Of a stretch of DNA of 64,000 nucleotides, positions 2,831 to 60,099 are shown piece by piece. Origin of the DNA: Candidatus Gracilibacteria bacterium (lineage in GTDB: Bacteria > Patescibacteriota > Gracilibacteria > BD1-5 > UBA2023). Position 1 is the stretch's first letter, and every line of letters begins with the position of its first letter. The notes beneath the pieces were generated by a model. The model was given only the letters and a program-made list of their open reading frames with translations, was not told the DNA's origin and did no database searches. The position numbers were made by a program, and so were the translations under genes. The stretch spans positions 434,001 to 498,000 of the forward strand of contig JAQUAB010000001.1 in assembly GCA_028687475.1 (NCBI GenBank), written 5' to 3'.

Positions 2831-2939
2831 GATTACCTCCAAGGCTGATTGATGACAAATAAATCATATAAATTCCTCTCTCTCTGTCAAGACATTTTCT
2901 ATTTCTTATGAATAATACTATATAATTTCCTATTTTCCT

Positions 2940-3092
2940 TTGTCATTCCGTAGGAATCCATTTTTCCCCGCAATTATGAAAAATGGATAATCAAAATCTC
3001 TTAAGATGAGCTCAAAAAAGGGATGTCTCCGACATGACAAAAAAAGAAACCACAGAAGCTCTAGATTCCCACCTACGCAGGAATGACAAAAA
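2940..3092. repeat. Dispersed palindromic repeat, copy 1
   Basis: The element starts with TTGTCATTCCGTAGGAATCC and ends with the complementary CCTACGCAGGAATGACAAAA. An internal GACATGACAAAA at about 3035 suggests two nested units. Copies with the same termini occur at 5626, 11222 and 60032. With the 14-nt repeat that follows, it fills nearly all of the gap between the GTPase and the ZIP gene. Confidence 0.6.
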
Positions 3093-5625: not shown

Positions 5626-5746
5626 GTTTTGTCATTCCATAATGAAATGGAGGAATCCCTTTTCTTTCGCTTATGAGAAAAGGATTATCAAATCTCTTAC
5701 GATAAATGTGAAAGAGATTTCTCGCTTTGCTCGAAATGACAAAATC
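5626..5746. repeat. Dispersed palindromic repeat, copy 2
   Basis: Begins GTTTTGTCATTCCATAATG and ends CTCGAAATGACAAAATC, an inverted arrangement of about 120 bp with internal GGAGGAATCCC and AAAGAGATTTCTCG segments. It occupies the space after the CDF gene. Confidence 0.6.
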
Positions 5747-7232: not shown

Positions 7233-9578
7233 ATGTTATTTTCACAGTATCTTTCCTCAAATCAAGGAATGATGGTAACAAAGAAAGCTTTCACTCTCAT
7301 TGAGCTCATGGTAGTCATAGCTATCATAGGAGTATTGGCTGCCGCACTCTATCCCCAGATTGGGAAATATGCGAGCAGAGGACGTGATGCTGGTCGTATC
7401 ACAGCAATTGCCAATATAGGAAGTGCTCTCGATAGCTCTCGTTTTGACTATGATGGGAAATACCCAGACCATGTCGGAGGATGTGTACCGATGAATATGT
7501 TGCTCACCAAAAAATATCTCATGACGGAAATCATCAGTCCAAGTGGAACAGGATACAATGAAGGATGTGGAAATAATGGACAATTCGGATATGGAAATCT
7601 CGGAATCGGAAGTGTGCTCATGGGAATAATGGAAAATGACTCTACAGGAAACTACACTGGTTCCACTGCTGGCTTCACAGGAACACTCACAAAAGAAGGA
7701 ATACTCAATACGCTCAATACAAAAAATGGAGCATGACGATATCATATTCGCCCAACAAATTATATTCTGAATAATGCGATTTTCTTATCTGAGTCAAGTG
7801 GTGTCTGTGGTACAGAAGCAAATACGTGTAAATCAGGAGTAGCAAAAGATTATATCGCTGCTTCCTGTGGTGGAACTGAGACTTGGAAATGTGCCGGAAG
7901 TCCTGGATCTATTGATGATAATTGTGAAGCTGTACGCGTTTGTTCGAGTGATGGAAATTGTGGTACAGCCGCTGGAACTCCAACTCCTATATATCCTACA
8001 TCGAATCTTTGTAGCATAGCATCTATGACCGCTACACCGAATGATACAACTGCAACAGATGGTATCTATAATTGGACTTGTGAAGGAATCAATGGTGGCG
8101 GAGCAGTACCTTGTAGTGCCGCAAAACAATATACGGTCACTTTCTATACCAATGGATGAACTCCTGTAGGAAATCAGAGTGTAGCATACAACTCAACTGC
8201 AACAGAACCATCACCAGCACCAACAAAAGATGGATATGTATTTGGTGGATGGTATAGTAATGATGCACTTACTTCAGGATGGAATTTTTCTACTCTGATT
8301 ACTGGCAATACTTCACTCTATGCAAAATGGGGACTTCATACCTATGGTGTCTCTGGAACATTTGGAGCCAATGGAGCTGGAGCAACAATAAATGGTTGTG
8401 GAAAAAGTACTACTGCAGATGCATCTGGGCATTTCTCATTTGGGTCTGTAGAAAGTGGTACTGCTTGTGATAATGTATCAGCTGTTCTTACTGGATATAC
8501 TTGTACCACTTCGAGACAAGGACCATCAAGTCTTTCTACAGATGTTACAGATATTGAAGGAAGTTGTACACCAGAAACAACTATGTGTATGATTGGACAC
8601 GATGCTCTTGATTCTGGCATTATTGGATCATGTATTATTGAATGTGGTATTGAAGGAGGAACGTGTGAGACAATGACATATACTGTCACTTTTAATACCA
8701 ATGGATGAACTCCTGTGACCGATCAGAATATAGCACAGTGAGCAAACGCAACAGAGCCATCACCAGCACCAACAAAAGACGGATATGTATTTGGTGGATG
8801 GTATAGTGATGCATGATTTACTTCAGGATGGAACTTTTCTACTCCAATTACTGGAAATACTTCACTCTATGCAAAATGGGATACAATCTCATACCCTCCA
8901 TCATGTTCGAATAGTATAAAAGATGGTGATGAGTTATGAGTAGATTGTGGAGGAAGTTGTCAAGAATGTAAGTATTCATTTACTCAAAGTGTGAAAGGAG
9001 CTGCCGCTAATAATAGTATACGATTCATTTCTCTTGGCGTGCACAATAATTGTGTCATCTCAAAAGTATGGTGAGATGTGACAGATCATACATCATATTA
9101 TATTATTGGGTCAGCATGAACTGAATGGACTATCGCTATTCTCGATGAATGAAATGCTTCCACAGCATATGCTGAGACAATATGTAATGATCTCAGTATT
9201 GGTGGAGAATCTTCTACAGAATGAAGTAGTTGTGGAGTATGAGGCTTATGAATCATGGTTTGATGATGTTGTTATGAAGGCACTTTTGTGAAGTATAATC
9301 CGCTCACTCCATTTCTAAAATGGTATCATGATGTTAACTGGAATGTGAGTAATAGTTGTGGGAATCAGTGGTGTTCTGATGTCTCTCTTCCATCTTGTGG
9401 CATTACAAAATCTCCATCTTTATGGCCTGTAAATTGTAATAATTGATTCCAAGACGGAGGTGAAACATGAGTAGACTGTGGAGGGGGTTGTCAAGCATGT
9501 TGAGGTGGATTGGGTGGAGGAGGAGATAGTGGGGGAGGAGATAGTGGAGGAGGAGATGTATGGATTCCTGGAGCGTAA
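7233..9578 (+). CDS. Giant pilin-like surface protein with InlB-type repeats
   Basis: 781 residues. The N-terminus is a type IV pilin/pseudopilin signal (KKAFTLIELMVVIAIIGVLA, cut expected before Phe20), so it should be processed by prepilin peptidase and anchored or assembled by the pilus machinery. After the pilin-like head (to about 165) come cysteine-rich spacers and two InlB B-type/Listeria-Bacteroides repeats (about 300-366 and 483-549, each with TVTF.TNGGTPV and GYVFGGWYS). Two Cys motifs of the form DGxExGVDCGGxCxxC (about 560 and 740) frame a lectin-like segment. The tail is glycine-rich (GGGDSGGGDS) and ends WIPGA. Many glycines are TGA. ATG 7272 would give the usual short leader and is an alternative start. 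Probably an adhesin. Confidence 0.78.
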
Positions 9579-10947: not shown

Positions 10948-11679
10948 CTATTTCAAAATTTCTCTCTCAAGCTCTGGGATTCTCTCGATTCCATGGAAAT
11001 GTCCATATCATTTCTCAGTCGAGAAGAAATGTATCTGTGCTTCTGGAAGGATTCTCATGAGCTCTTGCCCGACAGAAAAAGGAACTACGGCATCATCCTC
11101 AGAATGCCATATGTGAACTCGATTTCCAATCTTTTGCAAAAATTCGTAATTGTCCGGCGGAGTGAAATTTCCTTCAGAAATACAAGCAGCAAGAAGATGG
11201 ATTTGGTCTATTGATATCTTTTTTTGTCATACTGTAAGTATCTCTTTTTCTTCTTCTATTGAGGAAAAACTTCCTAAATTCTCATAAGATGAATTTGAAA
11301 GGGATTCCTCCTTCGTCGGAATGACAAAAGGAACATCCTGAGAACTGAGCTCAGAAAAATACTTCAAGAGGAAACAACCGCCTAAAGAATTTCCTATAAA
11401 AATGATTTCACCTGAAAGTGGAATTTTCTCGATCCAAGCATCGAAAAATATCTTCCATTCACTATACTTTGCATTGAGCTTATTCGGAAATTGTGGCATA
11501 TAGACAATATTCCCATTCATGACAGATTGCTCCGCAATTTTCACCTTCCAATCCGATTTTTCTTCCTGAGGAGCCCAAGCATCAAGCATCCATTCTGGAT
11601 AAGTATTCTCTATCCAATCGAGATATTCCGCATGTGTCGAGAAAGATTCTCCACCGTGTATAAAAATAAGAGTTTTCAT
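10948..11679 (-). CDS. RBBP9/YdeN-type serine hydrolase carrying a repeat insertion
   Basis: 243-residue alpha/beta hydrolase. The start (TLIFIHGG) and nucleophile elbow FIGNSLGG (Ser98) match the RBBP9/YdeN group. Asp195/196 (HSEDDAVVPF) and His227 (KGYGHFHG) complete a triad. Normal members are about 190 residues. The excess lies at residues 117-153, encoded exactly by a palindromic repeat (11222-11330) that also occurs between genes elsewhere, read as VIPTKEESLSNS and onward. The insertion sits between the helix after the nucleophile and the next strand (KISIDQIHLLAACI), a surface loop, so the enzyme may still fold. A TGA at 11227-11229 lies inside the insertion. Confidence 0.83.
11222..11330. 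repeat. Dispersed palindromic repeat, copy 3, inside a coding sequence
   Basis: Termini TTTTGTCATACTG and CGTCGGAATGACAAAAGG are inverted relative to each other and match the intergenic copies. The element adds about 37 codons in frame to the serine hydrolase gene without a stop under code 25. Confidence 0.7.
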
Positions 11680-13386: not shown

Positions 13387-15222
13387 TTAATGGATAACAA
13401 CCCCGTCATTTGAAGTTTTCTGCACTGTACCACCCCACTCGAATACATCGAATTCCCCTGAACGAATGAACTTTTTGAGAAGAAACGCATCGAATTTATC
13501 ACCGACTTTTGGCCATAGATATTTCGGATTCACTACTGACATAGGATATGCTTCGAGGAGGACTCGCATCTGATGTTTTGGTTTTGCGGAGAAGTTGAGT
13601 GTGACATACTGATCGAGCGCTTCATCGAACTTGAATGAGACAAAATACAGCGTATCAGCATCGAATTCATTAACCCAATAGTCGATAAAATCTTTTTTCT
13701 CCTGTGAATTGAATCCGATAACATCGAGTTTCTCATCGAAAAATGTGCGAATATCACGACCATAGAGCTGCCAACCATTGGTGTTATAGGTATAATCAGG
13801 AACACGAGCAGAGTAATAGAGATATCCGAATGTATTGGGAATATTTTTTACCGTGATATTTCCATCCAGATTTGCCTGGAAATCCCAACTCTGTACATCA
13901 GTAAAGGCTGGAAGAATCTTCGTGAAACTTCATCCATGAGGAAAATTAACCTCAAGAGAATTGGCACGCTGTTCACGATCATATACATAGACAAGTGGCT
14001 TGCAGAGCTCGGCTACTGGACTTGACTCATATGAATCAGTAGGATAGAGTAGATAATTCCCTTCACTATCAAGAGGAGTGACTCGAAAGATAGGAAGCAT
14101 AGCTGGTACTACACTTTCTGGAGTGATACCATCATAAGCCCCAGATTGTTTCTTGAGAATTTGACGATTTTCTATAAGAGGTGTAACATCGTCTTTTCTC
14201 TGGTAATAACTAAGAATTTTCTTTGTAAGATCAAAATTCAATAGATTTCCATTGCCACCAAGATTCTTGGATTTCCAAGTTGTATCATTTCCGAGAGAGA
14301 TAATACGATCGGAACTTTGGAGTGGTGATTTATAGAGGAATATGATGCCTGGGTATTCTCGAAATTCGAGAGCATATGTCTGAGTGAATCTCTTGGAAGT
14401 GAGAATATATTGGAGTACTTTTGCGCCCACATCATCATGGACTGAAAGGATAGTATCAATCTTTTCTATGCCTTCATTCGAAATAAGGCGAAAAATATAA
14501 GAAAGTCCATCTTCTGTCCAATAAGAAGAAAATTGTATATTACCAACCTGAAGCGACTTCGGATATTCTTTTCCTAGTGAGTCAAAACTCATCCTCTTTC
14601 CAGTATTGTCAATAAAATATTGCTTGAATCCTGTGCTTCCACACCCCTGAGAAGTTTCCTTTACGAGATATGCATGACTCCCAATAGATGAAACCTCAAT
14701 AGTGCTCAAAAACATGATTTCTGTTTTCTTCAAGCGTGCAGCGGTCTTATCCTTGTTGATATGATATTCTCGAACTCATTCAGACTGGAATATATATTCA
14801 CCCTCAGATGTACTAGGAAGATGTGAGAGATATGCCCATGTATCCATATTTGCACCAGTCAGTACCAGAAATTGTACATATTCATCTTTGACAGAGAAAT
14901 ATGGCTTCTCACCATGAATACAAATACTTTGTACGCAAATATCTTTCGGGCTTGGAGTCGTCACCTCTCACGATACGGTATCAAAAAGAGTAACAATACC
15001 CATGGTGTTCTCCTGTATCTTTCCAGAAGAAGAAATCTCTCCAGAAAGTGTACCTCCCGATGCTACAGTTCATGAAGAAACCTCTGTATTGATTCATCAT
15101 GAAGATGTATCTGCACCAGAAAGCATCTCGTTCCCCTGATCTACAATGATTGATGAAGAGGAATATGGAAAACTACAACTCGCAAGAAACAATAACCCAA
15201 TAACAATGAGAATTTTTTGCAT
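13387..15222 (-). CDS. Large lipoprotein, unrecognised
   Basis: 611 residues. Signal with lipobox LASC (LLFLASCSFPYSSS), a Ser/Gly/Thr-rich linker (about 20-75) with several TGA glycines, then a long beta-rich extracellular region without a motif I recognise. One segment repeats aromatic-turn patterns (YTYNTNGWQLYGRD). It is co-directional and nearly abutting the MEMO-CapA gene, and has its own promoter, so the two likely form one operon and act together at the cell surface. A propeller or beta-sandwich fold is a guess from composition only. Confidence 0.65.
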
Positions 15223-60031: not shown

Positions 60032-60099
60032 TTTGTCATTCTCCGAAGGAGAATCCCTTTTTATAACTGGATTGCCACGCTTCGCTCGCAATGACAAAG
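60032..60099. repeat. Dispersed palindromic repeat, copy 4, between rpsL and rpsG
   Basis: TTTGTCATTCTCCGAAGGAG at one end and CTTCGCTCGCAATGACAAAG at the other, about 70 bp. The second half (CTGGATTGCCACGCTTCGCTC...) belongs to a widespread family of bacterial GTCATTGCGA repeats and is similar to the 54163 segment. Confidence 0.6.

Follow-up and report, generated by a model that had tools for sequence, protein, structure and literature searches.

A palindromic repeat in frame within an RBBP9/YdeN-like serine hydrolase gene of a recoded Gracilibacteria genome

Results

The hydrolase gene and its product

The window, a stretch of 64,000 nucleotides from a Candidatus Gracilibacteria bacterium (GCA_028687475.1, contig JAQUAB010000001.1, positions 434,001 to 498,000 of the forward strand), carries a serine hydrolase gene, a palindromic repeat within that gene and further copies of the repeat between genes (Table 1). 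Under code 25 the hydrolase reading frame is open and holds two TGA codons, 151 and 224. Its product matches RBBP9 and YdeN by sequence profile (E 9e-16 to 7e-15), and structural alignment places it close to the folds of YdeN (Z 19.1, rmsd 2.5, 168 residues aligned) and RBBP9 (Z 17.6, rmsd 2.3, 159 residues aligned); Foldseek likewise marks it as RBBP9/YdeN-like. The identification as an RBBP9-like hydrolase made in the earlier note, from the sequence alone, holds at the level of profile (E 1e-15) and modeled fold (Z 17-19), and an enzymatic activity of the RBBP9/YdeN serine hydrolase type is predicted for the product.

The catalytic core is intact and conserved. Ser98, Asp196 and His227 are invariant and align with RBBP9 residues 75, 138 and 165; the triad of RBBP9, which we take to be formed by these same three residues, agrees with the positions counted in the alignment. 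The earlier note had described an intact triad of Ser98, Asp195 and His227; the intactness, the serine and the histidine stand, and the aspartate lies one residue further on, Asp196 being the more likely catalytic residue because it is the one that aligns with Asp138 of RBBP9.

Table 1. Features of the hydrolase locus and repeat copies in the window
Feature	Position	Strand	Evidence or score
RBBP9/YdeN-like alpha/beta serine hydrolase gene, 243 aa, genetic code 25	10948..11679	-	homologues, profile, structure
Ser98, nucleophile (GNSLGG), invariant	11386..11388	-	alignment
Asp196, probable catalytic Asp	11092..11094	-	aligned to RBBP9 Asp138
His227, catalytic His	10999..11001	-	aligned to RBBP9 His165
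Long palindromic element copy, in frame, ~residues 117-153: FVIPTKEESLSNSSYENLGSFSSIEEEKEILTVGQK	11222..11328	-	107.4 bits, E 1.8e-18
First terminal hairpin unit, GTC-ATTCC..GGAAT-C	11303..11325	-	
Second terminal hairpin unit, GTC-ATACT-GTA-AGTAT-C; stem differs from first, self-complementary	11226..11242	+	
TGA codon 151, inside repeat terminus, read as glycine	11227..11229	-	
Intergenic long copy	2938..3041		
Intergenic long copy, nearest gene 18 bp away	5627..5743		
Intergenic short (68-bp) copy; one end of ATTGCG type	60032..60099		

A loop absent from homologues

Protein searches found matches to the hydrolase in 42 of 99 genomes, its own included, and the closest of them stop at residue 110 and restart at 153-156. 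Residues 110-155, which span the insert, include EESLSNSSYENLG. It had been set out beforehand that a 37-residue loop in homologues free of the repeat would speak against an insertion; the loop occurs in none of the 27 homologues aligned, and a single one of these (L035 of genome G002) has a modest extra 10 residues at the site. The nearest orthologue, from genome G013 (67% identity overall, 66-68% on either side of the insert), connects the two flanks at 110 and 153 through a few residues, and its genome has no copy of the element at E<=1e-6. The boundaries of the insertion in the hydrolase are fuzzy because the loop differs by several residues between homologues, and no target-site duplication was seen by eye at the insertion.

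In the AlphaFold model (mean pLDDT 88, with most of the core at 90 or more) the inserted segment has a pLDDT of about 49-68 and lies between the helix of residues 99-109 and the strand of residues 153-163. The model supports a flexible loop between the post-nucleophile helix and the next strand, and the placement in a surface loop proposed earlier fits a low-confidence segment outside the well-predicted core.

Anatomy of the element

The copy that encodes roughly residues 117-153, the span given in the earlier note, is a complete element of ~107 bp, or ~36-37 codons, and was recovered both by a covariance model, among whose 17 hand-picked seeds it stands, and independently by blastn. Its two terminal hairpins are perfectly paired. 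The 23-mer of the first hairpin recurs identically at three other places in the same genome and at none in 379 other genomes searched across the phylum.

A copy consists of two TGTC-tagged hairpins arranged head to head, the unit being TTTTGTC-AT-stem-loop-stem-AT-C, and two inward-facing units are found in nearly all listed copies. Nearly all copies end in TTTTGTC-AT, and nearly all units read GTC-AT...AT, so that the stem begins with a complementary AT; the contiguous stem is mostly of 5-8 bp, the loop ranges from 3 to more than 20 nt, and the tail is mostly CCC or CTC. Long copies (100-125 bp) contain an extra 50-60 bp with an inner palindrome (..CTTATGAGAA..), and short copies (62-75 bp) have a short linker in its place. 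The letters of the stem vary from unit to unit and from one end of an element to the other, yet pairing is kept within the unit; therefore the conserved feature is the local hairpin and not identity between the ends. The stems show strong covariation: a perfect inner triplet was found in 44 of 54 units, whereas 10,000 reshufflings, which ignore kinship among copies, gave 7.7 on average and never more than 17. A second family with the same architecture, GTCATTGCGA, occupies 12 places in the genome.

Genome-wide, the stems of the terminal hairpins are widely variable yet paired, inside a family specific to one lineage, which suggests re-templating of the hairpins, with template switching as one possible route, and not maintenance by slow compensatory change alone.

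Copies in the genome and in relatives

About 33 related copies, some 26 long and 7 short, were found in the 1.06-Mb genome by blastn and the covariance model. The copies reported earlier near 2940, 5626 and 60032 are all real; the last is not a full repeat of the same kind, being a 68-bp relative of the shorter class. Among 39 relatives, related copies at E<=1e-6 occur only in G019 and G021, with 3 or fewer in each, and are absent at that threshold from the other 37; the genus of the host is represented by one genome (G000). The Y1 transposase domain of RAYT type (PF01797) was not found in G000, G019 or G021, genomes 80-96% complete in which controls were detected. Mobilization of RAYT type was considered and rejected, since PF01797 was found in no element-carrying genome, yet is present in some element-free relatives.

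Copies inside genes

Seven of the 33 copies lie within genes, and all seven are in frame and free of stops. Their hosts are the hydrolase, an aldose-1-epimerase-like gene, a 745-aa gene of unknown family, a nucleotidyltransferase-like gene, a glycosyltransferase, a CTP_transf_like-QueH gene and an ABC transporter; in G021, which belongs to a second genus, a further copy lies in frame within an ATP-citrate lyase gene. Relatives of several hosts lack the inserted residues: those of the nucleotidyltransferase-like protein align to 305 and then from 346, those of the glycosyltransferase skip from 111 to 133-136, those of the aldose-1-epimerase skip two inserts (84 then 110, and 199/211 then 239), and solved homologues of the ABC transporter align on either side of its insert. 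For the 745-aa gene, the paralogue at 13387-15222 was considered as a candidate empty site; its BLAST alignment is limited to the region downstream of the insert. Opposite-strand or other-frame ORFs over the copies at C4:98463, C1:360192, C1:341704 and C3:70243 were rejected on coding score and better-scoring neighbors.

Because ~81% of the window is coding and only 7 of 33 copies are genic (strong depletion, p=2e-13), most genic insertions are lost or avoided. Gene calls flanking the remaining copies gave no evident case of an out-of-frame, gene-disrupting copy, a kind that is harder to see. Long genic copies are less stably folded than long intergenic ones (median z -1.2 vs -2.8, p=0.002, n=4 vs 17). 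All five long genic copies, that of G021 included, are entered in the frame that reads F-V/I-I-P/S, although between genes this frame is open less often than any other (10 of 34), and all five encode polar residues and no cysteine; both patterns come from small numbers and were noticed post hoc.

Two of the hosts show further repeat-like segments. The aldose-1-epimerase-like gene (L111, G000:C1:298964-299974) contains two separate repeat insertions missing in relatives, one at residues 85-109 (NIPVIASESKTIH.., GTCATTGCGA-like by peptide) and one at about 199-236. In the glycosyltransferase (L104, G000:C1:254250-255503), besides the short palindrome, PHPSPLLQERGFQVPLPLSEGEGTEGGGG resembles another translated repeat.

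Genetic code and openness of the frames

UGA is described as a glycine codon in this bacterial group (PMC4032931), and TGA 224, which lies outside the repeat, agrees, standing at a glycine shared by the five nearest homologues with that loop. TGA 151 belongs to the conserved terminal ATGACA of the element, and because this terminus puts TGA in frame, the hydrolase copy is readable through UGA as glycine: none of its six frames is open under code 11 and two are open under code 25. The earlier statement that the TGA within the repeat is tolerated only through code 25 is thus borne out for the hydrolase copy. When all six frames are counted, code 25 leaves 45% of them open in the 21 long copies and code 11 leaves 14%, the figures for the seven short copies being 71% and 36%; with UGA as glycine, the long repeat is therefore open in ~3 times as many frames as under the standard code.

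Discussion

Origin of the loop and competing explanations

The reading we favor, and hold to be very probable, is that a palindromic element entered the hydrolase gene in no lineage but this one and would be translated as ~37 extra residues. A gene killed by the insertion, with an incidentally open frame, is an improbable explanation. The coding score downstream of the insert is low (-0.05 per codon), and the hydrolase appears dispensable, since a homologue is missing from many relatives; a pseudogene would, however, hardly be expected to retain 243 codons without TAA or TAG, intact Ser98, Asp196 and His227, and 66-68% identity to the G013 orthologue on both flanks of the insert, in a genome in which seven of seven genic copies are in frame. 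It is still less probable that the repeat never reaches the protein, whether because splicing removes it or because the ribosome skips the hairpin. The hairpin makes bypass possible in principle, but a removed segment would need neither a kept frame nor the avoidance of stops, and 7/7 copies have both, whereas long copies between genes have just ~30-55% of their frames open, without any demand that the length be a multiple of three; the hairpins of genic copies are, moreover, weaker and not stronger.

Least probable, to a degree that we regard as very slight, is that the loop is an ancient feature with a function in the enzyme, with the repeat derived from the gene or similar to it by convergence. 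The perfect pairing kept in both terminal hairpins of the insert could be read as a sign of long-standing function; against this stand the lack of the loop in all homologues, the many intergenic copies and the presence of the repeat, long or short, in six further genes of the genome that are unrelated.

Under an insertion in this lineage, a non-autonomous element made of two facing TGTC-tagged hairpins, about 107 bp long, would have entered the hydrolase gene in frame and without TAA or TAG; the insert would be translated and the enzyme would probably remain active. The element itself may be selfish DNA, neutral or slightly harmful to its host, moved in trans by some enzyme that acts on the terminal hairpins. 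Copies that survive within genes would be those in which the frame is kept and stops are avoided, whose peptide is a polar linker and whose mRNA hairpin is weaker.

That reading UGA as glycine made proteins more accessible to palindromic elements is more doubtful, and we offer it tentatively: frames that are closed elsewhere are open here because the ATGACA ends and the inner TTATGAG motifs carry TGA. If this were true, recoded lineages should gather in-gene palindromes more readily than their code-11 relatives. The finding also allows a test of whether changing the genetic code affects how much mobile DNA proteins can absorb.

Relation to known repeats

The resemblance to Rickettsia palindromic elements (RPEs) noted earlier holds for the mode of action, on which the comparison rests. 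Like RPEs, these small palindromes insert in frame into genes that are unrelated to one another, where they are read as additional residues (PMC10969869, PMC3733652), here in seven genes of G000 and one of G021; in both cases the expansion is limited to a lineage, and copies are both genic and intergenic. The host differs in phylum and its genome is recoded, the TGA of the element end being read as glycine, and nearly half of RPEs are genic (PMC10969869), whereas about a fifth of the copies are so here.

CGTC/TGTC-tagged REPs forming head-to-head dimers include dRS3, RPE-4 and RPE-6 (Di Nocera 2013, PMC3733652). The element shares with this CGTC-type family the TGTC tag, the stem starting with AT and the head-to-head dimers, as well as a distribution mostly near gene ends with some intragenic members and no known transposase (PMC3733652). 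It resembles the family but is not classed as a member because stem length, loop length and tail fall outside the family definition, which has a stem of 8-9 bp, a loop of 4-5 nt and a 3-nt tail CCA in place of CCC or CTC (PMC3733652); the long form differs further in its extra inner palindrome of 50-60 bp. The ERIC-like RU-1/2/3 are likewise small MITE-like repeats with open frames that are found in genes, and, compared by description, differ in being enterobacterial, 103-168 bp long and under the standard code (PMC2759123). REPINs of the REPIN/RAYT system also combine two inverted hairpins in one unit, with the tag GTAG there and TGTC here, and with no PF01797 found in the element-carrying genomes.

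Palindromes lying in frame within genes are known above all from Rickettsia and a few Proteobacteria, and titles and abstracts in the literature gave none on palindromic repeats in Gracilibacteria. The several cases in this bacterium, whose genome is reduced and recoded and whose phylum is distant, show that the process extends beyond Rickettsia and Proteobacteria, and the copies provide natural examples of loops inserted into enzymes.

Other observations

In two minus-strand leucyl-tRNA synthetase ORFs (L050 of G077 and L054 of G094) a whole hydrolase domain of the RBBP9 type is embedded immediately ahead of the editing domain, recognized in L050 as PF06821 Ser_hydrolase (E 2e-14) and in L054 by eye; it could possibly act as an extra aminoacyl-ester hydrolase within the synthetase. 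Elsewhere in the window, a 203-nt direct repeat, 85% identical between positions 8129-8331 and 8678-8880, sits in an ORF of 781 aa that begins like a pilin (FTLIELMVVIAIIG) and has repeated modules.
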